A DNA stretch of 64,000 nucleotides from the NCBI GenBank assembly GCA_022181065.1, contig BQMY01000081.1, positions 1 through 64,000 on the forward strand, in the 5' to 3' direction. The position numbers and the translations under genes were made by a program. The stretch is from Melioribacteraceae bacterium (GTDB taxonomy: Bacteria > Bacteroidota > Ignavibacteria > Ignavibacteriales > Melioribacteraceae). Shown one piece after another: positions 1,401 to 34,852 of this stretch. Position 1 is the stretch's first letter. Every line of letters starts with the position of its first letter. Below the pieces are notes generated by a model, which was not told the origin of the DNA, made no database searches, and worked only from the letters and a program-made list of their open reading frames with translations.

Positions 1401-2048
1401 ATGGCCAAGAAAGAGAAGAAAAACGAAATAAAAATTGAAAATTCAGGTTCAGATAATAAAAAAGACAGTTACGACAAAACTGATGAAAAAGATATTGTTG
1501 ATGAAATGCTCAAGTTAAATAGCGACTTGAAAACAGCAAATGAAAAAAATGAGAAATTTGAACAGGAAGTTTCCGAGTTAAAAGACACATTGCTCAGAAA
1601 AGCCGCTGAATTTGAAAACTTCAAGAGAAGAAAAGAATCTGAAATTGAAAATTTAATGAAATATGCTGCCGAACCGTTTATTACAAAAATCCTTACGGTT
1701 TATGATGATCTTATAAGAGCGGCCGAACATACCGAAAAATCGGCGAAAACAGATTCGGTGAAAGAAGGCGTGCAGATGGTACTTCACAAGTTTTCAAAAA
1801 TACTTGATGAGCAGGGAGTTACCCGAATTAAAGCAAAGGGTGAGCCGTTTGATTTCAATTTGCACGAAGCGCTTATGCAGCAGGTTTCCGATGATGTTCC
1901 TTCGCACACTGTGCTTGATGAGATAGAAGCGGGATATATTTATAAAGACAGAGTTCTGAAACATAGTAAAGTAATTGTTTCACAACAGTCTGTTGAAAAC
2001 AGCAGCAGTGAAGATGAAGCAGATAAAAACAAAAACGAAAAAGAATAG
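1401..2048 (+). CDS. grpE: Nucleotide exchange factor GrpE
   Basis: GrpE releases ADP from DnaK in the cytoplasmic Hsp70 cycle. The 215 residues show a charged, Lys/Glu-rich N-terminal tail, a long coiled coil (about 35-90) with the family segment RKAAEFENFKRRK, and a C-terminal beta domain with YIYKDRVLKHSKVIVS. The segment FDFNLHEAL is also typical. A GCGGAG ribosome binding site precedes the ATG. The gene sits between hrcA and dnaJ and is probably co-transcribed with them under CIRCE control. Confidence 0.95.
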   Translation: MAKKEKKNEIKIENSGSDNKKDSYDKTDEKDIVDEMLKLNSDLKTANEKNEKFEQEVSELKDTLLRKAAEFENFKRRKESEIENLMKYAAEPFITKILTVYDDLIRAAEHTEKSAKTDSVKEGVQMVLHKFSKILDEQGVTRIKAKGEPFDFNLHEALMQQVSDDVPSHTVLDEIEAGYIYKDRVLKHSKVIVSQQSVENSSSEDEADKNKNEKE

Positions 2049-2069
2049 TAAAATTTGAAGAGATAGATT

Positions 2070-3206
2070 ATGTCAAAACGCGACTATTATGAAATATTAG
2101 GTGTAGGTAAGAGTGCGTCTAAAGATGAGATAAAAAAAGCATACAGAAAACTTGCGTTGCAGTTTCATCCTGATCGTAATCCGGATGATAAATCGGCTGA
2201 AGAAAAATTTAAAGAAGCCGCGGAAGCATACGAAGTTTTGAGCAGTGATGACAAACGCGCCAAATATGATCGTTTTGGTCATGATGGATTGCGCGGTGGT
2301 CAGGATTATCACGGATTTAGTAATGCTGAGGATATATTCAGTCATTTTTCAGATATATTTGGCGGCGCGTTCGGCGGTGGCGGAGGCGGTGGTTCTATAT
2401 TTGATGATTTTTTTGGTGGAACCGGTGGTACCAGGCGATCACAATCCCGGGGAACAGGTACTCCCGGCTCGGATATGCGTATCACGCTTAAATTGACTCT
2501 TGAAGAGATTGCGCGTGGCACTACTAAAAAAGTTAAAATAAAAAAACATAAAACATGTTCCGATTGTAGCGGAAGCGGTGCGGAAAAAGGTACTTCATTT
2601 AATACCTGTTCCGTGTGTAATGGTGCCGGAGAAGTGAGGCAGGTTTCAAGATCATTGTTTGGCCAGTTCGTAAATATATCTACCTGCTCAAATTGTAACG
2701 GTACCGGCAAGATGATTTCTCAACCATGTAAAAAGTGTCATGGTGATGGACGAGTGCAGGACGAAACCACTGTAAAAATAACAGTGCCCGCAGGTGTGAG
2801 CGATAATAGCTACATGACTTTACGCGGCGAAGGCAATGCCGGAAAAAATGGCGGTCATGCCGGGGATATCATCGTTGTATTCAAGGAATTACCACACGAA
2901 TATTTCTTGCGCGACGGTGATAATATTATCTACGAATTGGTTTTAAGTTACCCCGAAGCTGTACTAGGTGAAGAGGTGGAAGTGCCAACTCTTAATGGTA
3001 GAGCCAAACTCAAAATTGAACCGGGCACACAGCCGGGAAAATATCTGAAAATGCGGGAAAAGGGGATTCAACATCTCAACTCGCACGGCGCAGGTGACCA
3101 GCTCGTAAAAATTAACATACATGTTCCGAGGAAAGTTACTTCCAGGGAAAAAGAATTGCTCAAGGAATTACAGGCTCAGCCAAATATTGTTGTCTCTGTA
3201 GATTAA
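2070..3206 (+). CDS. dnaJ: Chaperone protein DnaJ
   Basis: DnaJ is the Hsp40 co-chaperone that delivers substrates to DnaK and stimulates its ATPase. The 378 residues follow the full class-I layout: J domain (1-70) with HPD at 33-35, a Gly/Phe-rich linker (about 75-135), four zinc-binding CxxCxGxG repeats (163-227: [32 protein letters not shown]) and the C-terminal substrate-binding domains. It is the last clear heat-shock gene of the operon. The next reading frame begins immediately after its stop in the same frame. Confidence 0.97.
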
Positions 3207-3215
3207 AACAATTAC

Positions 3216-3220
3216 GGGGG
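3216..3220 (+). promoter_or_regulatory. Possible ribosome binding site for an ATT start
   Basis: GGGGG lies four bases before the proposed ATT start at 3225. It is the only purine-rich tract between dnaJ and the membrane segment of the ComEA-like protein, so it bears on the choice of start. Confidence 0.4.
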
Positions 3221-3224
3221 AATA

Positions 3225-3710
3225 ATTAAACGATTCTCCAACATAGCAGGCAAACTTGGTTTTACTACAGGTGAGACGGGGATAATATTACTCATTGGTA
3301 TTTTGTTTCTTGCTGGAAGTATTTATAAATATGTTATTAATGTAAAAGCGGAGTCGAAAGTTTTTGATTATTCTGTTGCTGATAGTATATTTAATTCAGC
3401 AGAAATAATAGATAGTGCAACAAATTTAGTACAAAAAAAGGTTGCTTCTGACGCTGAACTTTTGGATTTTAGTGGTTATAATTTAAGTGATACCTTGTCA
3501 GGTTCCGTCAATAATCTTAACATAAACATTAATACAGCCGGAATTGAAGAGTTATGTTTGCTCCCCGGAATAGGTAAAAAAACGGCTGAAAAGATAATTT
3601 CGTACAGGTTGAAAAACGGTGATTTCACCCAAATTTCTGATGTTATAAAAGTTAAAGGTATCGGAAATAAGAAATTTGAGAAGATTAAAGAGTTTATTAA
3701 AGTTGAATAA
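3225..3710 (+). CDS. ComEA-family helix-hairpin-helix DNA-binding protein
   Basis: The C-terminal half carries two helix-hairpin-helix motifs: INTAGIEELCLLPGIGKKTA and the following FTQISDVIKVKGIGNKKFEKI. These are typical of ComEA, which binds incoming DNA during natural transformation. An N-terminal membrane anchor (codons around 3282-3320) precedes a variable linker. No ATG, GTG or TTG occurs in frame between the dnaJ stop (3206) and a TTG at 3303, and that TTG would cut the membrane helix in half. Coding-like sequence continues upstream to ATT at 3225, which has GGGGG at 3216-3220. I therefore place the start at ATT 3225 (161 residues) as the best reading. TTG 3303 (135 residues) remains possible. 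Confidence 0.8.
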   Translation: MKRFSNIAGKLGFTTGETGIILLIGILFLAGSIYKYVINVKAESKVFDYSVADSIFNSAEIIDSATNLVQKKVASDAELLDFSGYNLSDTLSGSVNNLNININTAGIEELCLLPGIGKKTAEKIISYRLKNGDFTQISDVIKVKGIGNKKFEKIKEFIKVE

Positions 3711-3737
3711 AGAGTATTTTTAACCCCCGGAGGAACA

Positions 3738-4295
3738 ATGAGCAGAAAATCAGAACCTTGGTATATTCATGCCATACTTGGAGTTGTAATTTTAGGATTA
3801 ACGTATCTGTTGATTCAGGTGGCTATAATCGAACCGAGGGAAACTGTAAAATTGCAAAATTATTACAAACAAGAATCCCGCTTAAGAATGATGAATTTGA
3901 GAGAGGCGCAAATTTTATTTAAAGGTGAATATGGTCATTTTACCGATGATCTCGATAGCCTCATCAATTTCGTTAAAACAGACAGTGCTGTTGCCGCAAA
4001 AATAACTGGTATTGACTCGATTACCGGTAAATCATCAAATCCATTTGATAATTTAACTTCCGGTGAGTTCATTGTGGATTCACTTTACAAATCACCTCGT
4101 TCTTTCCAGCAGTTTGTTCTGGAAGTTGATTCCAGCATTGTTGTCGATACCGTGATCAACCGTCGTGGTAAAATTGTGAAAATTGATTCCACCTTCACAC
4201 GTGGTACACGTTATGTAATTCAGTCTCCCGACAGCAAGGATAAGATTGGTGACAAAGACAATGACGCTTTGTTAAATACCGCTTCCTGGGAATAG
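3738..4295 (+). CDS. Pseudopilin-like membrane protein of unknown function
   Basis: 185 residues with one N-terminal membrane helix (about 9-30) and a periplasmic domain. The stretch LREAQILFKGEYGHFTDDLD followed by SLINFVKTDS resembles the region after the helix in type II/IV pseudopilins, where a growing helix leads into a short globular head. No canonical prepilin peptidase site (G followed by F-T/S-L-x-E) is visible, so this is a pseudopilin-like family rather than a proven pilin. A perfect GGAGG lies seven bases before the ATG. The neighbours are comEA-like (upstream) and pilM-like (9 bases downstream), which suggests a role in a pilus, secretion or DNA-uptake apparatus. Confidence 0.6.
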   Translation: MSRKSEPWYIHAILGVVILGLTYLLIQVAIIEPRETVKLQNYYKQESRLRMMNLREAQILFKGEYGHFTDDLDSLINFVKTDSAVAAKITGIDSITGKSSNPFDNLTSGEFIVDSLYKSPRSFQQFVLEVDSSIVVDTVINRRGKIVKIDSTFTRGTRYVIQSPDSKDKIGDKDNDALLNTASWE

Positions 4296-4304
4296 TATCG
4301 TAAG

Positions 4305-5207
4305 ATGTCATTTAACGGCAATAGTGCAGGATTTAATTTAACCGGCAACAAACTTCAGCTTGTTGAAATAAATGTTAAGGGAAATGACGTTCTTCTTGAA
4401 AATGCTGACGATTACTCATTTGAGGAGACTTTCACCGGTGACGCGAAAGAATCGGTCTTTATCTCCAACCTGCAAACTGCCTACGATAATTTAAGTTTAA
4501 GAAAGAAACCGGATTTTAGTTCGGTTTCTTTTTCTTTACCTGCCGATTATTTCCTTACATTTAATATGCCCGTCGAAAAAAAACTTCTGAAAAAAGAATT
4601 TGACGAACACCTCTTGTGGGAATTTAGTATCCTGTTCCCGGAAAAAGACCCGGACGATTTTGTGATACAGACTATTGAACTTGGCGCTGACAAGGATAAC
4701 AGTTTTGTTGTTTGTATCGGGAAAAACAATCTCAAGAAGATTCACAAGTTCTGTGTGAGAAATAACCTGAAACTGAAGTTTATCGATTTTTCTCACCTGT
4801 CTGTTCACAATTATATTTGTAATCTGGAGAACAGCGCTGAAATATTATTGAGTGTTTACGCTTCAGGCGCAGATATATCTATGGCATTGATCAAAAATGA
4901 CGAAGTTCACAATATCAGGGTATTAAAAAATAATGCTAATAGCCCGCTCAGCTCTTTTATTGCGGATAAAATCTTTAAGGCATTTCCTGAGCTTGAAAAT
5001 ACTGGCGGACAAGTTCAGTATTATATTTCGGGAGAACAAGTAACGGGTAGTGACGTCTTCGAATTGAATTCAGAGTTTGAAGTACCATTTCAACGTATCG
5101 ACCCTTTCAGCAAAATTAAAAAATCGGCAGCTACCGAATATCTCGAAAACGACGAAAATAACTCTCAATATCTTGCCGCCGCTTCAATGGCGCTCAGATT
5201 TTCCTGA
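4305..5207 (+). CDS. PilM-like / FtsA-fold protein
   Basis: 300 residues with no signal peptide. The arrangement fits an actin-fold type IV pilus assembly protein related to PilM: FSLPADYFLTFNMPV, then a conserved-looking EFDEHLLWEFSILFPE segment, a central ASGADISMALIK that may be the second subdomain's nucleotide site, and a terminal YLAAASMALR. PilM sits on the cytoplasmic face of the inner membrane and binds PilN. No pilN, pilO or pilQ follows here; the next gene is rsmD, which overlaps the stop by one base. The assignment is by pattern only and divergence is high. Confidence 0.55.
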   Translation: MSFNGNSAGFNLTGNKLQLVEINVKGNDVLLENADDYSFEETFTGDAKESVFISNLQTAYDNLSLRKKPDFSSVSFSLPADYFLTFNMPVEKKLLKKEFDEHLLWEFSILFPEKDPDDFVIQTIELGADKDNSFVVCIGKNNLKKIHKFCVRNNLKLKFIDFSHLSVHNYICNLENSAEILLSVYASGADISMALIKNDEVHNIRVLKNNANSPLSSFIADKIFKAFPELENTGGQVQYYISGEQVTGSDVFELNSEFEVPFQRIDPFSKIKKSAATEYLENDENNSQYLAAASMALRFS

Positions 5208-23253: not shown

Positions 23254-24135
23254 TTGAAAAGAACGAAACTTCAGATTTTTTTATTCTTCCTGTTCTTTGC
23301 AGTTACCTCCTCTGCGCAGGACGTATATAAATTTAATCTTTTCCCGGATGGTCTCCTTTTTAATCCGCTACAGGGAAATATGAAGGAAGCAAGATTCGGA
23401 CTGATATATTTTCCCGATAACGCTAATCTCAAAATTGATATAGGTTATACCTCCGATTTATTGGAATTTATTATAAACGAACAACTTACCGTGCGAGCCG
23501 GTATAGATTTTTACGCTTACGGACTCGCGACAAGTTATGAAGGCCTCCGTTTACAGATTGATATGCTCGATGGATTTTTCGGTGGGAATGTTTCCGCGAG
23601 ATATCTTTTGGACAATAGCGAACTAAAGGGACGATTAAGGATTATTCATAACAGCGCGCATCTTGTGGATGGCAGTTTTCTGCTTAAAGAGAACATGTGG
23701 AAAAATGACTTCAAGCCGATTCCCTACACTCGTGATTTTGGTGAGTTAACTGTGATGTATCGCAAAAAAGATCTTGGTCTGGATAATTATTACTACTCCA
23801 GTCTTGCTTATGCAACAATGGTAAGACCAATTTCAATTAAAAAGTGGACGTTCAATTTTGGAGTGGAATCGGTATATTCCGGTGTGGTGCAAAATTTTTA
23901 CGATAAGCCGATTGATCTCTTTTTAATTTATCATAATCAGTTTAGTGGTGAGGGTGCCTATCTTGCTTCACACACAATAAAAGGCGGAATTAAATTTGGT
24001 GAGTGGAACAAAAAGGGTTTGCTCTTTTATCTTTTCTGGTATAACGGATTTAATTATTTCAGCGAATTTTATAACGTAAGAATAGAAAAATTTGGAATCG
24101 GGTTTAATGTCGATTTTTCGTCAGCTATACAATAA
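23254..24135 (+). CDS. DUF1207-like outer-membrane protein (first copy)
   Basis: 293 residues, TTG start preceded by AGGA. It has a signal peptide (about 1-21, ending SSAQ). The mature start, LFPDGLLFNPLQGNMKEARFG, fits the DUF1207 pattern (a FP-x-LF-x-PL-x-AxxxEP-like opening); I recognise this by eye, not by search. Alternating aromatic strands throughout suggest a beta-barrel or beta-rich envelope protein. A conserved-looking HNSAHLVDG occurs mid-protein; the second copy (27922-28746) has LSHISAHFVDGH at the same place. Its end overlaps the flippase-like gene. Confidence 0.68.
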   Translation: MKRTKLQIFLFFLFFAVTSSAQDVYKFNLFPDGLLFNPLQGNMKEARFGLIYFPDNANLKIDIGYTSDLLEFIINEQLTVRAGIDFYAYGLATSYEGLRLQIDMLDGFFGGNVSARYLLDNSELKGRLRIIHNSAHLVDGSFLLKENMWKNDFKPIPYTRDFGELTVMYRKKDLGLDNYYYSSLAYATMVRPISIKKWTFNFGVESVYSGVVQNFYDKPIDLFLIYHNQFSGEGAYLASHTIKGGIKFGEWNKKGLLFYLFWYNGFNYFSEFYNVRIEKFGIGFNVDFSSAIQ

Positions 24136-25072
24136 CAACCTGGTTAAAAAAATTGGCGTCGTATTAAGAATAATAATTCCGATAGCCATTTTTTATTACC
24201 TGTTCAGTATCATAAAATTTGATGAACTAAAGTTCTCATTCCTGAACTCTGACAAATACTACCTTACTTTCGCGCTTCTGTTTGGTTTTTTATCTTTTAC
24301 CCTGCAATATATAAAATGGAGTAATATCACCGGGGGTTTGCTTGGTAAATATAAGATTTCGAATATCGTCAAATCATTATTTGCCGGATATGCCTACGGA
24401 TTAATAACACCGATCAGGGCAGGAGAGATTCCGGGAAGAAAATTTGGATTAACCGGGAGTGACATTACATCGGTCTCAATGGCCGTTGCACTCGATAAAT
24501 CTTATAACATCACAGCGGTTTTAAGTATTGGTTCTATATTATTTTCGATCTATGTAACGTTCGTAACGGAGTATCCCCTCCATGTAACGATAATTATTCC
24601 ATTAATGGTTATTTCTATACTTATCGGATTTTATACCCTGCTCAAGAGTGATAAACTAGGCAGTTATCCCGTTCTCAGAAATATCCGAAAAATAGAATAC
24701 CTCAACAAAATAAAATTGGCATTTAACAGAAGCAGACGAATGGAAAATACATTTCATTTCAGGCAGTATTTACTTTCTGTTGGAATATTTCTACTCTATA
24801 CCATTCAATTTTTGTTTTATGTCTACGCGTTTGAATCACAGGGGAATCTGCTGATTATATATACCGGAGTCGGGGCGATCTATTATGTGAAAATATTCGC
24901 GGGTTTTCTGTCGATTGCTGATCTGGGGATTCGGGAGAGCAGCGCGGTTTATCTTCTCGGTATGATTGGTGTAGGAAGCGCGGCTGCACTAAGCGCGTCA
25001 CTTTTAATATTCAGTACAAATATTTTGCTCCCTTCATTGATTGGGGCGTTAATTATACTTCGGAAATCTTGA
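24107..25072 (+). CDS. Lysylphosphatidylglycerol synthase TM region/UPF0104-like membrane protein
   Basis: 321 residues with about eight membrane helices. The arrangement, with QYIKWSNITGGLLG, then AGYAYGLITPIRAGEIPGR and later FAGFLSIADLGIRES, matches the LPG_synthase_TM/AglD family of flippase-like or lipid-modifying integral proteins. I use the ATG at 24107, which overlaps the end of the DUF1207-like gene; an in-frame TTG lies at 24092. The GT2 gene begins one base after its stop. In this neighbourhood it probably handles a lipid-linked sugar or phospholipid. Confidence 0.72.
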   Translation: MSIFRQLYNNNLVKKIGVVLRIIIPIAIFYYLFSIIKFDELKFSFLNSDKYYLTFALLFGFLSFTLQYIKWSNITGGLLGKYKISNIVKSLFAGYAYGLITPIRAGEIPGRKFGLTGSDITSVSMAVALDKSYNITAVLSIGSILFSIYVTFVTEYPLHVTIIIPLMVISILIGFYTLLKSDKLGSYPVLRNIRKIEYLNKIKLAFNRSRRMENTFHFRQYLLSVGIFLLYTIQFLFYVYAFESQGNLLIIYTGVGAIYYVKIFAGFLSIADLGIRESSAVYLLGMIGVGSAAALSASLLIFSTNILLPSLIGALIILRKS

Positions 25073-25073
25073 T

Positions 25074-26192
25074 ATGATACATCCGGCGATATACATACCC
25101 TTACTCGCCTACGCGGTCTTTATCCTCTTTATCTGGCGTGGTTTGAAACGAAAGGAAAAAGTTGTAAAGTCAGAAGAAAAACCATTTTTGTCTGTCGTGG
25201 TTCCATGCAGAAATGAAGAAGAGAACATACAGGGGTTGCTTGATTCACTTGTAAATCAGGATTATCCTGCACACAAATATGAAATAATCTTGATAGATGA
25301 TAACTCGACAGATGTTACAGCTGATAAAGCCAACGCATATAAGAGTGATAAAAATATAATTCTGCTCCGTAACGAAAGCGGGGATGCAAAAAGGGGATTC
25401 AAGAAAAACGCGATTGAGACCGGAATTGATGCTGCAAAGGGAGAAATTATTGTAAGTACCGATGCAGATTGCCGCCATTCCGAAAACTGGCTTTCGCAAA
25501 TAGCCGCAAGTTTTGACAAAGAAACTGGATTTATCGCCGGTCCTGTTAAGTTAAAACCGGATCATTCATTATTCAGCAGATTGCAGGCACTTGAATTTGC
25601 CGGATTGATGCTCTCGGCAGCCGGATTGATAAAAGCGGGATTTCCTGTTACATGCAGCGCCGCCAATATTGCGTATCGCAAAAAAGCATTTCATGAGGTA
25701 GGCGGGTATAAAGATAATAATGAACTTTCTTCAGGTGACGATGAATTACTGATGCATAAAATAGATGAATCTGGTAAATACAAGGTTCGCTATCTTTGGG
25801 AGCCATCAGCGGTTGTTACAACAACATCCGCGAATAAGCTTAAAGACTTTTTTGAGCAAAGACGCAGGTGGGCAAGTAAAACACTTTTTTATAAAAAGCC
25901 GTTTCTTACTTTTACTCTGGCGCTGATATACCTCTTTTTCCTTTCAATTCCTGTTAGCTTTTTGGCAGCATTTTTTTATCCCGTATATTGGGATTATCTT
26001 ATTACCGCGCTCGGTACTAAAATTTTGGTCGATTTTTTGGTAATGGGAAATGGCAGGAATTTTTTCTATGATGGTTATTTGCTCAGATATTTCGGTCTGG
26101 CGGAATTACTTCACGCGCCTTATATAATTATATCAGCATTTGCCGGGCTTTTCGGAAACTTCGAATGGAAAGAACGAAAACTGGAACGTTAA
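25074..26192 (+). CDS. Family 2 glycosyltransferase, membrane-bound (first of two)
   Basis: 372 residues. One N-terminal helix (about 5-22) precedes a GT2 catalytic domain with VVVPCRNEEENI, the nucleotide-binding IILIDDNSTD, the DxD-type STDADC, the catalytic SSGDDELL and QRRRWASK, which is equivalent to the QxxRW motif of processive GT2 enzymes. Two or more C-terminal helices follow. It ends FEWKERKLER, very like the end of the second GT2 (27899-27908). The sugar donor and acceptor are unknown. It is followed after one base by a polysaccharide deacetylase. Confidence 0.85.
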   Translation: MIHPAIYIPLLAYAVFILFIWRGLKRKEKVVKSEEKPFLSVVVPCRNEEENIQGLLDSLVNQDYPAHKYEIILIDDNSTDVTADKANAYKSDKNIILLRNESGDAKRGFKKNAIETGIDAAKGEIIVSTDADCRHSENWLSQIAASFDKETGFIAGPVKLKPDHSLFSRLQALEFAGLMLSAAGLIKAGFPVTCSAANIAYRKKAFHEVGGYKDNNELSSGDDELLMHKIDESGKYKVRYLWEPSAVVTTTSANKLKDFFEQRRRWASKTLFYKKPFLTFTLALIYLFFLSIPVSFLAAFFYPVYWDYLITALGTKILVDFLVMGNGRNFFYDGYLLRYFGLAELLHAPYIIISAFAGLFGNFEWKERKLER

Positions 26193-26193
26193 T

Positions 26194-26829
26194 ATGAAAC
26201 TGATGTACAATCCCTCTAAACCGGGCGAATTGTTATTCCCCGGCTTTGTGTGGCGAAGTAAAAACAACAAGATATTATTGACATTCGACGATGGTCCCAA
26301 TCCGGATACAACGGAGATCATTCTTCGTATTTTACAAAAGTTGAACGTAAAAGCATTATTTTTCCTTGTTGGGAACAACATAAAAAAATATCCTTCTTTG
26401 ACGGGGGAATTATTATCTGCAGGTCATGAATTTGGTAACCACACTTTTAATCATAAAAATTTACAATTTGCCGGTAACAGAGGTATTTATAACGAAATAA
26501 CAAACTTCAATAAAATATCCAATGAGATTATTGGTAGGCAAACCAGATATTTCCGTCCGCCCAAAGGAAGATTTAATTTCAGGCTTTCAAAGGAATTAAA
26601 AAAGTTTGGTCTGACAAATGTAATGTGGTCTTTATTAACTTTTGATTACAAAAATGACCTGAATATTGTTAAATTTGCGGTTAAAAATTTTATAAATTCA
26701 GATTCGATTGCTGTTTTTCACGACAGTAACAAGAGTAAACTAATTATTGAAGATTCGCTTGAATTATTTGCAGATGAAATAACGAAACGCGGATACGAAT
26801 TCGGGACTCCGTTTGAATGTTTGAATTAG
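26194..26829 (+). CDS. Polysaccharide deacetylase (NodB homology domain)
   Basis: 211 residues. The NodB motifs are clear: LLTFDDGPNPD (catalytic and zinc Asp), GNHTFNHKN (two zinc His) and RYFRPPKGRFN; MWSLLTFDY may be the fourth. This predicts a metal-dependent N- or O-deacetylase acting on a carbohydrate, probably the product of the flanking GT2 enzymes. The first Met of the annotated protein is at 26194, right after the GT2 stop. There is no obvious signal peptide, so it may act on a lipid-linked sugar at the cytoplasmic face. It overlaps the second GT2 by 13 bases. Confidence 0.88.
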   Translation: MKLMYNPSKPGELLFPGFVWRSKNNKILLTFDDGPNPDTTEIILRILQKLNVKALFFLVGNNIKKYPSLTGELLSAGHEFGNHTFNHKNLQFAGNRGIYNEITNFNKISNEIIGRQTRYFRPPKGRFNFRLSKELKKFGLTNVMWSLLTFDYKNDLNIVKFAVKNFINSDSIAVFHDSNKSKLIIEDSLELFADEITKRGYEFGTPFECLN

Positions 26830-27908
26830 TCTTTACCATATTTTTCATTTTATATACTATCACCCATCTGATATTTCTCTTCGGAATATTGAAGAAATTT
26901 CCGAAACTGGATGAAAAAGACCTGCCGACTGTTTCAATTTTGGTTGCCGCAAGGAATGAAGAAAATAATATTCTTAGCTGCATAACAGGTCTTGACAAGC
27001 TTGAGTATCCGGAAGATAAAATAGAAATATTTATCATAGATGATCATTCAACCGACAGAACGAACGAGATCGTTAGTCAGTTTATCCAGGACAAACCGAA
27101 GTTCAGAATATTCCAGCCGGAAAAGAAACTGGGCGAACTTAAAGGAAAAGCGAACGCTCTTGCAAACGCTATCAAACAGGTCAAAAATGAGGTAATTCTT
27201 ACCACAGACGCTGATTGCGTAGTCAATCCCTTATGGGCAAAAACTTTGGCTTCCTATTTTGAGAAAGATGTGGCGATGGTTTGTGGCTATACAGATCAGC
27301 ATAAAAGAACAGTTTTTGAGGGGATGCAGGCTGCTGATTTTATTTATCTGCTTGGCGTTGCCGCCGGGATGATGAATCTGGGTCAACCTTTAAGTTGTAT
27401 TGGCAATAATATGGCTTACAGAAAATCTGTTTATGATGAAGTAGGCGGATACGAAAATATCAAGTTTTCTGTTACGGAAGATTTCCAGCTCCTTCATGCT
27501 ATGAACGGTTTAAAAAAGTATAAAATTATTTATCCTCTCGATGCGGGCGGATATGTTCTTTCAGAGCCATGCCCAAACATGAAAGTTCTCTACTGGCAGA
27601 AAAAACGGTGGGGTGTTGGCGGACTTAACAGCAAGTTTATCGGCTTTTTTACAATGTCGTTCGGCTTTTTTATGAGTGCCTCAATTTTTGTTTTGCCATT
27701 CTTTATATCGCTTCATGTTTTGTTGATACTGTTTGGCAAAATTTTAATGGATTATTTATTCCTGAAAGTGATCTATAAAGGAATAAAATCGAAAATAGGT
27801 TTGTTTGATTTTATAATGTTCCAGATTTATTTACCGATTTATGTTGTTGTATTACCGATACTTGTGACATTCAGCCGTAATGTGGTCTGGAAGGAACGAA
27901 AATTTTAA
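26817..27908 (+). CDS. Family 2 glycosyltransferase, membrane-bound (second of two)
   Basis: 363 residues with the same plan as the first GT2: N-terminal helix, VSILVAARNEENNI, IFIIDDHSTD, LTTDADCVVNP, VTEDFQLLHA as the catalytic acid pair and QKKRWGVGG, then C-terminal helices ending VVWKERKF. Overall identity to the first copy looks moderate, consistent with an old duplication. Its start overlaps the deacetylase. Confidence 0.85.
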   Translation: MFELVFTIFFILYTITHLIFLFGILKKFPKLDEKDLPTVSILVAARNEENNILSCITGLDKLEYPEDKIEIFIIDDHSTDRTNEIVSQFIQDKPKFRIFQPEKKLGELKGKANALANAIKQVKNEVILTTDADCVVNPLWAKTLASYFEKDVAMVCGYTDQHKRTVFEGMQAADFIYLLGVAAGMMNLGQPLSCIGNNMAYRKSVYDEVGGYENIKFSVTEDFQLLHAMNGLKKYKIIYPLDAGGYVLSEPCPNMKVLYWQKKRWGVGGLNSKFIGFFTMSFGFFMSASIFVLPFFISLHVLLILFGKILMDYLFLKVIYKGIKSKIGLFDFIMFQIYLPIYVVVLPILVTFSRNVVWKERKF

Positions 27909-27921
27909 TGATGAGATTCGT

Positions 27922-28746
27922 ATGAAAAAGATTATTTATGTTTTAGTGTTATTAACCGGATTTGTCCACGCACAATCGAAATGGGATATTTTTCCCTCGG
28001 ATTTGAATGTTCAGCCATTTACCGCAAATTTTCTGGAACCGAAGCTTGGTTTTGTTTTTACTATGAATGAAAACAGTTTAAGGCTTGATATTGGAAACTC
28101 ACTCGACGCTATACATTATAATAGCTGCAATGATGTAACCTGGTCATTCGGTTTTGATTTGTTTACTTACACTCTGCTAAGGGGAGAAACCGATTTCCAT
28201 TTTCCTGTTGACGCTGTTGATTATTTGTTTGGAGTAAATGTCGGATATCTAAACAACGCTCACAAATATCCGTTTGGTGTGCGATTAAGATTGAGTCACA
28301 TAAGCGCCCATTTTGTTGACGGGCATTATGACGGTCCGAACCAGATGTGGCGGGGCGGGTTAAACCCGAGAGTTTACAGTCGTGAATTTATTGAAGTATT
28401 ACCTTTTGTAAAATTTGGTGATCTGCGTGTTTACGGCGGACTCACTTATATCTTTCACGTTGATCCTTCTGAACTGGGTGCCGATATCTGGCAGGCTGGA
28501 TTTGATTATTTCAAACCCGACTATATAGCTGATTATATTACTCCATTTGCCGGGTATGATTTCAAATATGAAAATCTCACCGAATATAAAGCCAACCACT
28601 CGGTTATGGCAGGTGTCAAGTTTGGCAATCCGCACGGCAGGGGAATTTCAATATATTTCCAATACTATTCAGGTAGAAATATTCATGGCGAATATTTCGA
28701 TTTCGAAGAAGAGTTTTCCGCGTTTGGTATGAACATAGACCTTTAG
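27922..28746 (+). CDS. DUF1207-like outer-membrane protein (second copy)
   Basis: 274 residues. The true start is probably MKKIIYVLV at 27922 (signal peptide 1-17, ending VHAQ). An upstream in-frame TTG at 27880 lies inside the second GT2. The mature start IFPSDLNVQPFTANFLEPKLG parallels the first copy, and LSHISAHFVDGHYDGP parallels its mid-region. The two DUF1207-like genes bracket the flippase/GT2/deacetylase genes. Confidence 0.68.
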   Translation: MKKIIYVLVLLTGFVHAQSKWDIFPSDLNVQPFTANFLEPKLGFVFTMNENSLRLDIGNSLDAIHYNSCNDVTWSFGFDLFTYTLLRGETDFHFPVDAVDYLFGVNVGYLNNAHKYPFGVRLRLSHISAHFVDGHYDGPNQMWRGGLNPRVYSREFIEVLPFVKFGDLRVYGGLTYIFHVDPSELGADIWQAGFDYFKPDYIADYITPFAGYDFKYENLTEYKANHSVMAGVKFGNPHGRGISIYFQYYSGRNIHGEYFDFEEEFSAFGMNIDL

Positions 28747-28754
28747 GCAATAGA

Positions 28755-29708
28755 ATTAAAAAAATAAAACTATACATATTACAGATATTTTTATTCCTCT
28801 TTACATTTGCCAGCACAACTATAATGGGTGTGCTCTGGACAACAGGAAATGCTGTATTCCCGATGCCCTGGGAAACATTAATGCTCGGACTCCCATATTC
28901 AATTTCGTTAATGTTTATACTTACCACACATGAATTCGGGCATTATTTTGCGGCGCGATTACATAAGGTTGACGCGACATTACCATTTTATATTCCCGTA
29001 CCTCCTTTCCCGGGTCTCTTTCATTTCGGAACTATGGGCGCTGTTATAAAAACAAGGTCACCGATCCTGAATAATAAAGCTATGTTTGATGTTGGTGTCA
29101 CAGGACCAATTGCCGGATTTGTCGCGAGTTTAATTGTTTTGATTTACGGTTACACCCATCTTCCCGGTACTGAATATATTCTGGCAATTCATCCGGACTA
29201 TTTTTCTCCCGAATATGGCGCGGAACAAATTCCTCTCGCATTCGGGGATAACCTGCTGATGAGTTTCCTGAAATGGGCTCTGACAGACCCTTCCCAGTTT
29301 GTACCCCCCATGAGTGAAATCTATCATTATCCCTATCTGATGGCGGGGTGGTTTGGATTGTTAATCACGGCAATGAATATGATTCCTGTTGGTCAGCTTG
29401 ATGGTGGTCATGTAATTGTAAGTATGTTCGGACCTATTGTACATGAAAATCTCGCAAAATCAGCCTTATATATTATCAGTTTTCTCGGGTTGCTCGGCGC
29501 GATTGATTTGTATCTTGATTTTTCTGTCGGAATTGGATGGGCAGGATGGCTTTTATGGACGGTAATACTGGTATTCGTTATAAAAGTGAAACATCCGCCA
29601 ATAATGTATTTCTCCCGACTTGATAAAACAAGGATGGCGCTGGGGTATTTCAGTCTGTTTATCCTGATTGTTTCCTTTATGCATACACCATTTTCAGGCG
29701 GGTTATGA
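28755..29708 (+). CDS. Site-2-type M50 intramembrane metalloprotease
   Basis: The zinc site is HEFGH (in LTTHEFGHYF) and the third ligand is the Asp of GQLDGGHV. PFYIPVPPFPGLFHFGTMGA and the transmembrane layout fit the M50 protease group. These proteases cut membrane-anchored substrates. The first ATG is at 28824 (294 residues), but codons 28755-28823 read RIKKIKLYILQIFLFLFTFA, a membrane helix typical of the family's N-terminus. No ATG, GTG or TTG precedes it in frame. I place the start at ATT 28755 (317 residues), with AGG at 28745-28747. It follows the second DUF1207-like gene by eight bases. Confidence 0.8.
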   Translation: MKKIKLYILQIFLFLFTFASTTIMGVLWTTGNAVFPMPWETLMLGLPYSISLMFILTTHEFGHYFAARLHKVDATLPFYIPVPPFPGLFHFGTMGAVIKTRSPILNNKAMFDVGVTGPIAGFVASLIVLIYGYTHLPGTEYILAIHPDYFSPEYGAEQIPLAFGDNLLMSFLKWALTDPSQFVPPMSEIYHYPYLMAGWFGLLITAMNMIPVGQLDGGHVIVSMFGPIVHENLAKSALYIISFLGLLGAIDLYLDFSVGIGWAGWLLWTVILVFVIKVKHPPIMYFSRLDKTRMALGYFSLFILIVSFMHTPFSGGL

Positions 29709-29904: not shown

Positions 29905-30702
29905 ATGAAAAGAATAGTATATCTCTTCTTACCGCTCATTCTATTGATCTATGCATGCGATGACGCGGGTGATTCAATTGTTGATTCGGAAACAGATAAT
30001 CTCGTTGTAGAGAATATCTCGGCTCCGGGCTCATTTACAAAAACACTTTCTGATTCATCGTTCAGCACGGCGGTACGGTTTAATACCGGAGAGTTTGTCC
30101 CTGAATCGGTATGGCTCAACATTAAGGAAAATAACGGTTCGAGTGTGTTATACCGCAATTTGCCGCTGGCAGATGATGGCAGTACTTCATCGGGAGATCA
30201 AACCGCAAACGATGGTGTATTTTCAGCAATAGTGTTTATGAGCGCGCTCGACCCGAGCGGGAAATATAATCTTGAATATTATTACAGCGATGCAACAAAC
30301 ACATCTCGTAAATTGTCCGTTCTTCAGCTAAATTATGATAATGGGCAAAATAATCTTCCACCCGAAATTGTTAATATTTATGCTACCGATACCCTTTTGA
30401 TTACTGCCGATACTGTAGCTACACTAATTGCCGCAGAGATTTCAGATGTTAATGGACTCAGGGATGTTGAGGAAGTCTGGTTTACAGTTACTCGTCCGAA
30501 TGGTACCAGTAACGGTTCCAAGATCACACTTTTCGATAATGGCAATGAAGGGGATCAGACTGCAAACGATGGAATTTATTCGAGAGGAATAATTGCTGTT
30601 ACTGGTCAGACGCAGGGTGATTACAAATTTAATTTCAGGGCGAGAGACAAAGCCGGAAATCTTAGCGAAATAATTGTTCACACAATAACGATAGTTGAAT
30701 GA
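29905..30702 (+). CDS. Lipoprotein with two Ig-like modules, unknown function
   Basis: 265 residues. The signal peptide ends in LLIYAC with Cys18 as the likely lipidated residue. Two modules carry the same motif, GDQTANDGVFSAIV (near 108) and GDQTANDGIYSRGI (near 225), which I read as two beta-sandwich repeats. The next gene begins within its stop region (ATG at 30699), so it is coupled to the Asp-box propeller protein. No catalytic signature is visible. Confidence 0.7.
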   Translation: MKRIVYLFLPLILLIYACDDAGDSIVDSETDNLVVENISAPGSFTKTLSDSSFSTAVRFNTGEFVPESVWLNIKENNGSSVLYRNLPLADDGSTSSGDQTANDGVFSAIVFMSALDPSGKYNLEYYYSDATNTSRKLSVLQLNYDNGQNNLPPEIVNIYATDTLLITADTVATLIAAEISDVNGLRDVEEVWFTVTRPNGTSNGSKITLFDNGNEGDQTANDGIYSRGIIAVTGQTQGDYKFNFRARDKAGNLSEIIVHTITIVE

Positions 30703-32285
30703 GAAAATTAGTTTTTGGTTTATTGATATTGGTATCGGTGGTTGTGAACGCGCAACTGAGACCCGATACATACAAGTTTGAAAACGGACGAATCGGTAAA
30801 ATTGCCGCCGACAGCCCGATAAGTAACTCTATCCTCGATATCGCGATTGATGGAAGTGATATCTGGCTCGGTACAAGCAGGGGATTAAGTTACTCTGCTG
30901 ACCTCGGTGCCACATGGAAAAATTATTATCAGGATGAAACGTTCGGCGAAGAATCTATCACAGCCATCGGTGTTTATAATGGTGTTGTCTATGCTTCTAC
31001 AGGACATAGCACCGAAAGAAATGGTGAAAGTCTGCCCGAAGGTTCAGGAATAAAGATATCTACCGATGGCGGGAATACCTGGATTTCTCGTCCTCAGCCT
31101 GTCGATGATCCCGCGGATTCATCTGTGCAGTATGGTATAAATACTTTGCGTGCTCTTCCGGTTACCGTGGAGATAAACAATATTGTTTATGATATGGCTT
31201 TTACTCCCGGTACAATCTGGATTGTCACTTTTGCAGGCGGATTGAGAAAATCAACCGACCTTGGCGAAACATGGCAGCGTGTAGTTTTACCTCCCGATAA
31301 TATCGATTATCTGCACCCCGATAGTACTTATTCTTTCAGTTTGCAGCCTGTTGCCGGTGGGTTTGGTAGTGAAAGTTACCTCAATCATCGTGTATTTTCG
31401 GTTGCCGCCGCGGGTGATAATGTAATATACGTTGGTACTGCCGGTGGAATTAACAAGGGTACAATTCTGGCTGACGGTAATATAGTCTGGCAGAAATCGA
31501 CACGTACAAATCAGGATGAACCGATTAGTGGTAATTTTGTTACAGCGCTATCCTATGATGAAAACACGAACTCCGTTTGGGGCGCTACATGGCTTGCGGA
31601 AGGTACAACAGAATACTACGGCGTAAGTGCTTCATTTGATGGCGGCTTGTCATGGAAGGTATTCCTGAGTGGGGAAAAAGCCCACAATTTTGGATTTGTG
31701 CCGAAAATTTCGGGTAGCAATATTTTTACCGATATAATGGCGGCTACTGATAATGGATTGTTCAGAAGCGCGGATTTTGGGAATTCATGGTTCACACCAC
31801 AGAACATTATCGACGTCACTAATGGTAACACACTAAAGACCGATAAATATTACTCCGCATCGGCATTGAATTTTTCGGGATTACGTTATGTATTCCTTGG
31901 AAGCGCCGAAGAGGGTCTAATCAAGCTTGAAGAATCGGGCAGCATGTGGTCGGGCGACTGGTATATACTTACAGCCTCTGAAAAAATAGTAGCTGAGGAT
32001 AATACTTACGCATTCCCGAACCCATTCTCTCCTTCACAGGAAAGAGTAAGGATCAAGTATCTTAATAACTCATCTTCAACAGTTACTATCAGGATCCTCG
32101 ATTTCGGGATGAATCTCGTGAAAACAGTAATCCAGAACGCTGACAGGCTGCAGGGTGTTGAACACACAGATTACTGGGATGGTCGCGACGAGTTCGGCAG
32201 TGTTGTCGCTAATGGTGTTTATTTCTACAGAATTGACTTTGGTGATTCCGACCCTGTGTACGGTAAAATCATGGTACTAAGATAA
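30699..32285 (+). CDS. Secreted Asp-box propeller protein with FlgD-Ig-like/T9SS C-terminus
   Basis: 528 residues with a signal peptide (about 1-18). Five Asp-box/BNR-type repeats are visible: SADLGATWK, STDGGNTWIS, STDLGETWQR, SFDGGLSWK and SADFGNSWF. This indicates a beta-propeller of the sialidase/VPS10/PSII-stability-factor type, without obvious sialidase active-site residues. The C-terminus contains YAFPNPFSPSQERVRIKY, then WDGRDEFGSVVANGVYFYR, a FlgD-Ig-like T9SS sorting domain. It lies just ahead of a PorV/PorQ-like protein. Confidence 0.82.
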   Translation: MRKLVFGLLILVSVVVNAQLRPDTYKFENGRIGKIAADSPISNSILDIAIDGSDIWLGTSRGLSYSADLGATWKNYYQDETFGEESITAIGVYNGVVYASTGHSTERNGESLPEGSGIKISTDGGNTWISRPQPVDDPADSSVQYGINTLRALPVTVEINNIVYDMAFTPGTIWIVTFAGGLRKSTDLGETWQRVVLPPDNIDYLHPDSTYSFSLQPVAGGFGSESYLNHRVFSVAAAGDNVIYVGTAGGINKGTILADGNIVWQKSTRTNQDEPISGNFVTALSYDENTNSVWGATWLAEGTTEYYGVSASFDGGLSWKVFLSGEKAHNFGFVPKISGSNIFTDIMAATDNGLFRSADFGNSWFTPQNIIDVTNGNTLKTDKYYSASALNFSGLRYVFLGSAEEGLIKLEESGSMWSGDWYILTASEKIVAEDNTYAFPNPFSPSQERVRIKYLNNSSSTVTIRILDFGMNLVKTVIQNADRLQGVEHTDYWDGRDEFGSVVANGVYFYRIDFGDSDPVYGKIMVLR

Positions 32286-32302
32286 TTTCAGGAGTTTTAG
32301 TT

Positions 32303-33292
32303 TTGATAAAAAAATTGATTTTAATCTGGTTGGTTTTCAGTGCTTTTTCTTTCGCGCAGGTTGAGACAAATAAAATTTCTTCAATGGCGGGAGCTTTCAG
32401 CAGAATGGGCTTCGGAGCAAGAGGAATGGCGATGGGTAATGCGATGTCGGCAGTTACATCCGGTAATTTGTCCTCATATTATAACCCTGCGCTTTCACCA
32501 TTTCAGGAAGGGAACATGTTCCAGACCGCGTATTCGTTCCTTTCGCATGACAGGAGTCTGAACTTCCTCAACTTCACCAAAAAATTTGAGTTCGGCAAAA
32601 AAGATACAAAGAAAAAACGTACTGCGGTTGCCGGATTAAGTCTTGGTATTATCAACGCAGGTGTAAGTAATATCGATGGCAGAGATAATCAGGGATTAAA
32701 AACAGGTGAGCTTTCTACTTCTGAAAACCAGTTTTTTATTGGTGTATCTAACAGGTTTTCTGAAAAATTGTCCGTTGGTATTTCGATAGAGTTTTATTAT
32801 TTCGATCTTTATGATGAGGTTACTTCCACAGCTGTTGGTATTGATGTAGGTGCTTTGTATAGAGTAAATGAAAACCTGAATCTTTCATTTTTCCTCGGCG
32901 ACCTTAACGCCAAATATGAGTGGGATACCTCTCCGGTTTATGGGCGTGACGGACTCGATACCGATAACGCGTTCCCGACAACAAAAAAGATTGGAGCGGC
33001 TTATACTTTTTGGGAGTACGGACTTCTGGTTGCTGCCGAATGGGAGGGGAGCAACGCCGGTACAAACTATTTAAGATTTGGTGGTGAGTATGAAATTATT
33101 GACAAATTTTTACTTCGTGCGGGTCTCGACAGATTAAATTTGAGCAATAGTGACGAACCTGTTCGTCCTTCCGCAGGATTTTCGTATTTTTACAATGTGG
33201 GTTCTGTAACACTTGGTGTTGATTACGCTTTTGTTCTGGAACCATATTCAGCATTTGATCAACATATTGTAGGAGTAAATTTTAATTTCTGA
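32303..33292 (+). CDS. PorV/PorQ-family outer-membrane protein
   Basis: 329 residues, TTG start with AGGAG (32290-32294) eight bases ahead. Signal peptide about 1-18 (AQVETN). The mature start has the family hallmark MGFGARGMAMGNAMSAV and SSYYNPAL, and the C-terminus is a typical outer-membrane barrel end (VGVNFNF). PorV/PorQ proteins assist T9SS cargo at the outer membrane; the family also includes UPF0164 proteins of other roles. Its neighbour upstream has a T9SS-type C-terminus. Its stop overlaps the next gene by one base. Confidence 0.82.
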   Translation: MIKKLILIWLVFSAFSFAQVETNKISSMAGAFSRMGFGARGMAMGNAMSAVTSGNLSSYYNPALSPFQEGNMFQTAYSFLSHDRSLNFLNFTKKFEFGKKDTKKKRTAVAGLSLGIINAGVSNIDGRDNQGLKTGELSTSENQFFIGVSNRFSEKLSVGISIEFYYFDLYDEVTSTAVGIDVGALYRVNENLNLSFFLGDLNAKYEWDTSPVYGRDGLDTDNAFPTTKKIGAAYTFWEYGLLVAAEWEGSNAGTNYLRFGGEYEIIDKFLLRAGLDRLNLSNSDEPVRPSAGFSYFYNVGSVTLGVDYAFVLEPYSAFDQHIVGVNFNF

Positions 33293-33945
33293 TGAAAAAG
33301 CTAATTCTACTTTCGATTTTATTGATTTTCTTTAGCGGATGTGACGATGAATCCAATCCGTTAAACGACATACTCGGCACAAATATTACAGCAAAAGAGA
33401 AAGTTGCCGATGTAAAAATTGAAGCACGCGCGAATTTTGCTTCAGATGCACAGTTAACAGGTATTTTTGGTCGTAACGTTTCGAGTGACGGTAAGGTTAA
33501 CCTCGTTGATTTTTCTTCAGTTAAAGGCTTTATCTATATGATGCAGTCTGAAAGTCTTGAGGAAAACGAATTTTATATGCCGGTAATCGCAAGCGATCCG
33601 GTAAAATTACCATTTAATCTTAATGATCTTCTTTCATTTGTTCAGGATCTGGAAACAAAAGAGCGTCTTGGCGGTGTATTCGGATTACTTTCAACAGTAG
33701 CAATCAGTGAAAGCGCAAGTTATCCTGACAGTGATGAAGCTATGGTGAAATTCCTTAATGGCGGTGGTCAGGCATATCTGAGCGCAAACTCAGGTGCGAA
33801 AATAGACCTTTTCCTTGTACCGAGTAAATCTATTACTATAAATGGTATTGAAAATTCAGCCGACTGGATTTGCAATTTTTATGGCGGAAGTACCTCCCTT
33901 ACTCTCTGGTTAAACAGTGGTACGGGTATTGTTACAACTTTTTAG
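33292..33945 (+). CDS. Lipoprotein of unknown function between two PorV/PorQ-like genes
   Basis: 217 residues. The signal peptide ends in IFFSGC, with Cys17 lipidated. The rest shows no motif I recognise. It sits between two PorV/PorQ-like genes, with one base of overlap before and eight bases after, so it is probably part of that envelope complex or operon. Confidence 0.7.
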   Translation: MKKLILLSILLIFFSGCDDESNPLNDILGTNITAKEKVADVKIEARANFASDAQLTGIFGRNVSSDGKVNLVDFSSVKGFIYMMQSESLEENEFYMPVIASDPVKLPFNLNDLLSFVQDLETKERLGGVFGLLSTVAISESASYPDSDEAMVKFLNGGGQAYLSANSGAKIDLFLVPSKSITINGIENSADWICNFYGGSTSLTLWLNSGTGIVTTF

Positions 33946-33952
33946 GTGAAAA

Positions 33953-34852
33953 ATGAAAAAAATTGTTTTATTGATATTATTCCTTTCAGGTTTTGGTTTT
34001 GCGCAGAGTGCCGGTAATACCGGACTTGCATTTCTTAAACATGGATTTGGCGCGCGAAATATAGCTATGGGCGACCTCGGTGTTGCCGGTATTGATGATC
34101 TTTCGGCTTTTAATTACAACCCTGCCCAACTTGCTAAATATAAACGGGCCGAAATTATCTTTAACCATAATGAAATTATGACCGATGTGAGAAGTGAAAC
34201 ATTCGGTGCCGGTTTCAAACTGTTTGGTCTTCCTTTTGCGCTTGGTGTTAATACAACTTCGGTGAGTGATATTGAAATCCGAAATACACCCGGTGATCCC
34301 GCATCTACATTCAATGCCAATTATTTCTATACCGGATTGGCGACCGGATTTTTTGTAAGTGAAGATATATCCGTCGGTTTGGGAGTTAAATATCTCTACG
34401 AAGGGATGTTGACTTACAACGCGAACGGCTACGCTCTTGATTTCGGTGTGAATTATTATGATCTGGTTGAAGGTCTTGAATTGGGTCTTGCATACAGAAA
34501 TATCGGAAGCATGAACGAGTTGAAATCGGAAGCAACCAAACTTCCGGGTGACCTCCGTTTCGGCGCCGCATATGGAATGGATATGCCTGAATTGAATGGT
34601 GAACTACTTGTTGTCGGCGGATACCAGAAATATACCGATACCGATGATAATCATATTCACGCGGGTACCGAGTTTGTTTTCAAAAAACTCGCTGCGTTAA
34701 GACTTGGTTATCAGATTGGATATGAATCGAAAGGATTTTCCGGCGGACTTGGTGTATATTACTCAGGATTCAATTTCGATTACGCGTTTGTGCCGTTCCA
34801 GTATGATTTGGGAAGCTCACATATAATATCAATTAAATACAATTTTATGTAG
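33953..34852 (+). CDS. PorV/PorQ-family outer-membrane protein (second copy)
   Basis: 299 residues with a signal peptide (1-17, FAQSAG). The mature start shows KHGFGARNIAMGDLGVAG and SAFNYNPAQL, the same family opening as the 32303 gene. The C-terminus (SIKYNFM) is a plausible barrel end. It is followed by a strong terminator at 34871, so the run from 29905 to here probably forms one or two transcripts. Confidence 0.82.
   Translation: MKKIVLLILFLSGFGFAQSAGNTGLAFLKHGFGARNIAMGDLGVAGIDDLSAFNYNPAQLAKYKRAEIIFNHNEIMTDVRSETFGAGFKLFGLPFALGVNTTSVSDIEIRNTPGDPASTFNANYFYTGLATGFFVSEDISVGLGVKYLYEGMLTYNANGYALDFGVNYYDLVEGLELGLAYRNIGSMNELKSEATKLPGDLRFGAAYGMDMPELNGELLVVGGYQKYTDTDDNHIHAGTEFVFKKLAALRLGYQIGYESKGFSGGLGVYYSGFNFDYAFVPFQYDLGSSHIISIKYNFM

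Follow-up and report, generated by a model that had tools for sequence, protein, structure and literature searches.

A conserved, modular gene cassette of Ignavibacteriales with DUF1207 barrels and a possible role in envelope lipids

The cassette described here consists of seven genes at 23254–29708 of a 64,000-nucleotide window, the whole stretch of DNA analysed, from contig BQMY01000081.1 of a Melioribacteraceae bacterium. From 5' to 3' the genes are referred to as DUFa, FLIP, GT2a, PDA, GT2b, DUFb and M50 (Table 1). Our reading is that they form a conserved, modular envelope-lipid gene set through which a glycolipid is made and remodelled, with DUF1207 (a domain of unknown function) acting in the outer membrane; confidence in it is evenly balanced. 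It is suggested by the conserved order and tight spacing of the genes and by the catalytic residues kept in GT2a, GT2b, PDA and M50. The DUF1207 proteins themselves are likely to be enzymes, judging from predicted structures and residue conservation. Because the barrel of OMPLA, an outer-membrane phospholipase, is their best fold match and because they carry an invariant His-x-Ser-x-His-x-x-Asp motif and a conserved acid, a role as lipid enzymes of the outer membrane, with the fold of OMPLA, probably accounts for them better than a role in export.

The composition proposed in a first-pass annotation agrees with the table of open reading frames (ORFs) and with Pfam. All seven ORFs are on the forward strand, and neighbouring ORFs overlap or stand 1 base apart, the exception being DUFb and M50, which are 77 bases apart. 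DUFa and DUFb are the only two PF06727 (DUF1207) matches at E ≤ 0.001 in the 4.9-Mb genome.

Conservation and modularity of the cassette

The class sample consists of 245 genomes, in which a neighbourhood is the 6 kb around DUF1207. PF06727 is matched in 133 of these genomes (E ≤ 0.001), and a DUF1207 profile built from relatives finds 165 (E ≤ 1e-5). Outside the window there are 144 PF06727 matches, of which 143 have a DUF1207 frame; the remaining one (L252), short and with an internal stop, was dropped. A GT2 gene is present in 69 of the 143 neighbourhoods, a PDA gene in 49, both in 48 and either in 70. In the order Ignavibacteriales (families f1–f3) the GT2 neighbourhood is found in 40 of the 41 DUF1207-bearing genomes, and the 41st (G125) has a second DUF1207, missed by the Pfam search, ~1 kb from GT2b. 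The GT2/PDA neighbourhood extends to eight families (f1–f4, f7 with GT2 only, f13, f19 and f22). The other twelve families with PF06727 matches show it in 0/60, one f9 locus (L200) having a weaker GT2 match below threshold. This split by family, although drawn post hoc, shows that the background is low. In f4 and f22 the cassette is reduced to DUF1207-PDA-GT2. Because it recurs in many genomes, the gene order is not due to chance.

The first-pass annotation had proposed checking whether the order is kept in other genomes and whether DUF1207 co-occurs with these enzymes. The order is indeed kept in Ignavibacteriales, and other families of the class show it reduced or altered, so that it is not unique to this genome. 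Co-occurrence is borne out in part: 70 of the 143 loci have a GT2 or PDA gene nearby, but in the other 73 both are missing from the 6-kb neighbourhood (18 of these lie beside lpx genes), and DUF1207 thus also occurs without the cassette genes elsewhere in the class.

Spacing was measured in a second set, the best 80 of 338 confirmed related stretches, which is skewed to close relatives and overlaps the class set (22 of the 80 loci have a DUFb identical to one there). The gene directly 5' of DUF1207 is GT2b or a radical SAM gene in 77 of the 80 loci, and M50 is directly 3' in 78. The median gap is −4 bases for FLIP-GT2a (≤20 bases in 26 of 27), −11 for GT2a-PDA (30 of 31), −13 for PDA-GT2b (43 of 45), 16.5 for GT2b-DUFb (26 of 42) and 1 for DUFb-M50 (74 of 78). 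From M50 to the next gene, BigX, the median is 118 bases, with ≤20 bases in 5 of 68.

The cassette is modular. GT2b-DUFb-M50 is near-constant, whereas FLIP and GT2a are present or missing as a pair, in most cases along with PDA. FLIP is upstream in 30 of the 80 related loci, is lacking in 26 despite more than 7 kb of upstream sequence, and is undecidable in 24. A second DUF1207 is found in 16 of the 30 loci with FLIP versus one of the 26 without; none of these 26 has GT2a, and four keep PDA. Among the 38 genomes of the family, FLIP (E ≤ 1e-20) occurs in 23 and a DUFa-type gene in 21, with both in 19 and neither in 13. FLIP is thus present in 19 of 21 genomes with DUFa versus 4 of 17 others (Fisher p 3.7e-5, not corrected for kinship). 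In nine family genomes with a FLIP-less cassette FLIP is also missing genome-wide, and is therefore absent, not moved. One genome (G218) fits the pairing: its DUFa is accompanied by FLIP-GT2a-PDA, and both GT2b (at E ≤ 1e-70) and a second match of DUFb type are lacking. Another (G207) is an exception, with DUFa and no FLIP. Loss of FLIP-GT2a-PDA as a single block was considered and dropped, since FLIP and GT2a travel together and PDA does not always follow.

In 35 of the 80 loci a radical SAM gene (~331 aa; for example at 8139–9134 of L043) stands between GT2b and DUFb. It is present in 11 of the 38 family genomes and has no match at E ≤ 1e-50 in the genome of the window. Another radical SAM gene is directly 5' of FLIP in six of the loci, and one follows the upstream DUF1207 in four. 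L043, which shares its contig with L123, has a protease gene (1516–4344) inserted between DUFa and FLIP; the product is subtilisin-like and ends in a type IX secretion tail.

In other families DUF1207 adjoins genes of lipid A synthesis. Eighteen of the 143 loci (families f9, f16, f17, f21 and f26) have lpxC and lpxA in the 6-kb neighbourhood, where by our estimate fewer than one would be expected by chance, given about one lpxC per ~3-Mb genome. In all 18 lpxC is on the DUF1207 strand, as is an lpxD-like gene in 11. LpxC with a FabZ domain, LpxA and LpxD were confirmed by Pfam in one locus (L087), and profiles from that locus were used to call the lpx genes of the rest. One locus each in f8, f18 and f14 was also scanned with Pfam; the DUF1207 neighbours there gave no functional hint (SSB, NHL-repeat, von Willebrand, antiporter-type, VanZ, YjeF, LysE, methylguanine methyltransferase and DnaJ). 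The second DUF1207 copies of family f2 (L066, L072, L073, L076 and L226) adjoin an ABC ATPase and an ABC-2 permease, and three of the five are also beside RmuC.

Catalytic residues and predicted fold

Both glycosyltransferases carry the signature of GT2 membrane synthases (DxD, ED/DD, QxxRW). The DxD, DD and QxxRW residues of GT2a are kept in ≥95% of 28 sequences, and TDADC, TED and QKKRW of GT2b are invariant in 15. In PDA the metal and catalytic residues of NodB (CE4) deacetylases are conserved (D50, D51, H101, H105, R139, D169 and H194), with TFDD, HxxxH, RPPxG, Asp169 and HD kept in ≥95% of 44 sequences. Its nearest named NCBIfam models, sporulation-type deacetylases, match below cut-off. 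No signal peptide was seen by eye, for which reason PDA is placed in the cytosol. HEFGH and D193-G-G-H of M50 are kept in ≥95% of 72 sequences. FLIP is above the cut-off of PF03706 and under that of TIGR00374 (22.4 bits; cut-off 43.2), and is only 22–30% identical to relatives in the same position; its family name suggests that it may flip lipids.

The two DUF1207 proteins are predicted to be 12-stranded barrels. The AlphaFold model of DUFb, from 63 sequences, has 12 strands including a short one at 42–47 (pLDDT 93.7, pTM 0.86), and that of DUFa, from 18 sequences, has 12 strands in a like layout (pLDDT 86.4, pTM 0.80). The N-terminus of DUFa looks by eye like a signal peptide. When the candidates supplied by Foldseek were scored again with VIA-align, six OMPLA entries took ranks 1–6 for both models, with Z of 16.9–17.8 for DUFb (root-mean-square deviation 3.2–3.4 over 208–211 residues) and 17.5–18.1 for DUFa (3.1–3.3 over 209–214 residues). 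Across the two models the sugar porins follow at 15.5–15.8 (KdgM), 14.5–15.4 (NanC) and 15.0–16.3 (VhGalP), with autotransporter domains at 15.2 and 15.9; LpxR scores 12.8 with both.

Residue conservation was counted over 150 sequences (149 ORFs and one from the window, in DUFb numbering). H126, S128, H130 and D133 are invariant, and position 155 is acidic throughout (119 Glu, 31 Asp). Arginine is found at 121 in 149 sequences and at 123 in 141, and positions 118, 122 and 124 are hydrophobic in 91–100%. From this alternation, H126, S128 and H130 would face the lipid. The His142-Ser144-Asn156 triad of OMPLA sits on the barrel exterior (excerpt of PMC5043575). The DUF1207 barrels resemble OMPLA (PldA, PF02253) in their best solved fold match, their 12 strands and a predicted lipid-facing His-x-Ser at a strand end. 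His142 and Ser144 presumably end strand 5 of OMPLA and Asn156 starts strand 6, the position of Glu155 in DUF1207. The barrels differ from OMPLA in having no PF02253 match or significant profile similarity, Asp or Glu in place of Asn, and the additional invariant His130 and Asp133. PF02253 is unmatched anywhere in the genome, and in the cassette DUF1207 alone matched the barrels at E ≤ 0.1. A search of PDB sequences with the DUF1207 profile (E ≤ 10) returned three chains, all judged spurious: a potassium-uptake regulator (E 0.069) and two designed propellers, whose best E of 2.3e-6 is a sum over repeats that singly give ~7.5.

Proposed pathway and alternative explanations

If the cassette acts as a pathway, GT2a and GT2b would place sugars onto a lipid at the cytoplasmic face, PDA in the cytosol would take off an N-acetyl group to leave an amino sugar, and FLIP would carry the lipid across the inner membrane, from where it would pass on to the outer membrane. 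There the DUF1207 barrels would hydrolyse or transfer an acyl chain, from the cassette lipid or from lipid A, using Ser128 and His126 with Glu155 or Asp133 as a candidate catalytic set facing the lipid at the outer rim. M50 would be a tightly linked partner. The amino-sugar product is proposed because a deacetylase is present, and lipid A is a possible substrate because DUF1207 adjoins lpx genes in other families. As GT2b is the partner of DUFb, and the FLIP-GT2a block that of DUFa, two parallel pairs of synthase and barrel may exist. What the analyses show directly is the gene content with its conservation and modularity, the predicted barrel fold, the invariant residues and, in other families, the lpx linkage. 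The direction of the pathway, the amino-sugar product, the enzyme activity, its substrate and the pairing are what we infer from these observations.

The first-pass annotation had likewise proposed synthesis, deacetylation and flipping of a lipid-linked amino sugar, with the barrels as export or anchor parts. The tightly packed sugar-lipid set is retained, synthesis and deacetylation being argued for by the conserved GT2 and NodB residues and flipping by the family name of FLIP. The export or anchor role of the barrels is not: their OMPLA fold matches and invariant motif point to an enzyme, with porins scoring close below.

A more specific and rather tentative proposal is that the DUF1207 proteins make up a family, so far undescribed, of barrel-shaped lipid enzymes in the outer membrane (Ser128, His126 and Glu/Asp155, with invariant His130 and Asp133). 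They may remodel acyl chains, either on lipid A or on a glycolipid that has been deacetylated, each copy dedicated to its own membrane GT2. If so, Ignavibacteriales would couple cytoplasmic glycosylation with acyl remodelling in the outer leaflet in one operon, with the M50 protease and, in some relatives, a radical SAM enzyme as further members. More generally, the present findings offer DUF1207 a testable enzymatic role with named candidate residues. They also connect this domain with lipid A genes elsewhere in the class and single out a gene set, conserved among relatives, for lipids of the envelope.

Several observations weigh against these proposals. In structure, the 12-strand porins are only ~2 Z units under OMPLA, and in Foldseek alone OMPLA (E 2.6e-4) comes second to an autotransporter (E 2.2e-4), which does not separate them. 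The alternation of residues fades towards the rim, since hydrophobic residues prevail at 127, 129 and 131 too (68–100%), and the third candidate residue is Asp or Glu against Asn in OMPLA. Comparison by hhalign of DUF1207 alignments (33, 63, 66 and 150 rows) with 16 PLA1 sequences gave probabilities of 0.06–3.7%. For this reason OMPLA membership is not claimed; nor is homology at the sequence level, the profile comparison not being significant, although the longest alignment keeps the C-terminal register and puts the DUF1207 motif within 4 residues of HxSNG of OMPLA. In genome content, 55 of the 143 DUF1207 loci have no GT2, PDA or lpx neighbours, and in the family of the window lpxC lies elsewhere, on another contig in its own genome (LpxC is found in 37 of the 38 family genomes, this one included). 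PDA and GT2b occur without FLIP or GT2a in 12 of the 80 related loci, some of them incomplete at the ends. One genome (G009) has DUFa, FLIP, GT2a, PDA and GT2b and lacks DUFb, so the DUFb-GT2b pair is not obligatory. GT2b (E ≤ 1e-70) is commoner in the class than DUF1207 (210 versus 165 of the 245 genomes) and can therefore work without it; G002, G007 and G016, for example, have GT2b and no DUF1207, and some genomes (G027, G064, G091 and G104) have DUF1207 and no GT2b at that threshold.

Among the alternatives, export of a polymer like poly-N-acetylglucosamine, in which the GT2s would polymerise, PDA deacetylate and DUF1207 serve as a 12-strand sugar porin like KdgM or NanC, is unlikely. PgaC/IcaA is the nearest named NCBIfam model for both GT2s (101 and 101.8 bits), both carry QxxRW, and sugar porins come next after OMPLA in the fold list, intermixed with autotransporter domains. 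However, the scores are far under the PgaC cut-off (TIGR03937, 422), both barrels match OMPLA better than the porins, and one would not expect a pore to keep His-x-Ser-x-His-x-x-Asp without any variation. The deacetylases PgaB and IcaB are exported, whereas PDA, with no signal peptide, reads as cytosolic.

That DUF1207 takes OMPLA's own role, as a phospholipase controlling membrane asymmetry by acting on misplaced phospholipids, is also unlikely, and slightly more so. OMPLA is the best fold match and this role might be vacant in a genome without PF02253. The recurrent genomic links, however, are to sugar-lipid and lipid A genes, and no phospholipid gene is among the few neighbours scanned with Pfam.

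It is more doubtful still that GT2b, DUFb and M50 are neighbours by descent only, in an ancestral order without functional link. The block of M50, BigX and the genes downstream is likewise collinear in many loci, and DUF1207 is located elsewhere in many families. Yet the gaps within the cassette are mostly ≤20 bases, against the longer median between M50 and BigX, the GT2/PDA neighbourhood spans eight families and in some has an altered internal order (for example DUF-PDA-GT2 in f4 and f22), and DUFa and FLIP are largely co-present or co-absent.

Glycosylation of a hopanoid or other isoprenoid in the manner of HpnI/HpnK, with the relatives' radical SAM gene in an HpnH/HpnJ-like role, is highly improbable and is rejected for this genome, which has no hopene cyclase match: the GT2 alignments cover most of HpnI (59.4 and 52.9 bits) and the radical SAM gene matches Radical_SAM and, weakly, HpnH (36.4 bits), but these scores are far under the curated cut-offs (310 for HpnI; 225), squalene-hopene cyclase (PF13243) is unmatched at E ≤ 0.001 in the genome and in 34 of the 38 family genomes, and the radical SAM gene is itself missing here.

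Known systems resemble the proposed glycolipid cassette in part. PgaA-D and HpnI-HpnK share with it a GT2 and a deacetylase and give weak best or near-best NCBIfam matches; they differ in the low scores, the apparently cytosolic PDA and the missing hopene cyclase already described. FlmF2-NaxD-FlmK and ArnC-ArnD-ArnT are lipid A amino-sugar modification systems. We take their likeness to the cassette to be a GT2, a deacetylase of NodB or similar fold and a flipping step, leading to an amino sugar on a lipid carrier. Unlike them, the cassette has no ArnT-like transferase (one PF02366 match is on another contig), and its GT2s carry QxxRW and C-terminal membrane helices, the helices seen by eye. 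LpxR and PagL are outer-membrane enzymes acting on lipid A (excerpt of PMC6260217). DUF1207 has its lpx links in other families, and LpxR is among the fold matches of both DUF1207 models (Z 12.8), but it scores under OMPLA and the porins. PagL, a barrel of 8 strands, is not among the 50 fold matches listed. A search for LptD (PF04453) found no match in the genome and was uninformative, the model having matched just 2 of 14 control genomes, Bacteroides not among them. The first-pass annotation knew of no described system with this composition. In the open-licence literature no description of the cassette was found among the papers listed, and none used the word DUF1207, which does not in itself establish absence in print.

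Gene calls and flanking sequence

Table 1. Features of the cassette, in window coordinates
Feature	Position	Strand	Evidence
DUFa, DUF1207 barrel, upstream copy, 293 aa	23254..24135	+	PF06727 22.6 bits, barely above the cut-off of 22
DUFa motif His132-x-Ser134-x-His136-x-x-Asp139	23647..23670	+	alignment; invariant across the class
FLIP, LPG_synthase_TM / flippase-like membrane protein	24092..25072	+	PF03706 (LPG_synthase_TM, MprF-type) 55.4 bits; cut-off 33.4
GT2a, membrane GT2 glycosyltransferase	25074..26192	+	PF00535 (Glycos_transf_2) 96.8 bits
PDA, NodB-type deacetylase	26140..26829	+	PF01522 (Polysacc_deac_1) 115.8 bits
GT2b, membrane GT2 glycosyltransferase	26817..27908	+	PF00535 92.5 bits
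DUFb, DUF1207 barrel, downstream copy	27880..28746	+	PF06727 34.2 bits
DUFb motif His126-x-Ser128-x-His130-x-x-Asp133	28297..28320	+	end of model strand 118-131; 150/150 sequences
DUFb Glu155, candidate acid in a triad with Ser and His	28384..28386	+	Glu 119/150, Asp 31/150
M50 site-2-type protease	28824..29708	+	PF02163 (Peptidase_M50) 63.8 bits

Several genes likely start downstream of the first codon of their ORF: FLIP at ATG 24107, PDA at ATG 26194 and DUFb at ATG 27922, from which DUFb is 274 aa long. The start of M50 is probably 5' of 28824, with a rare codon such as ATT 28755. Its frame is open 5' of the first ATG (28744–28824), and the N-terminal helix of relatives is matched there, but this stretch of the frame contains no ATG, GTG or TTG.

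Scans for promoters and terminators gave no more than shuffled sequence (26 versus 26.0 and 5 versus 5.8, respectively), and a tRNA scan of the 64-kb window found none. The sequence 3' of M50 (29905–34852) is a collinear block kept after M50 in many relatives. By reading, it encodes a lipoprotein-like Ig protein, a protein with a sorting-like tail and PorV-like proteins.

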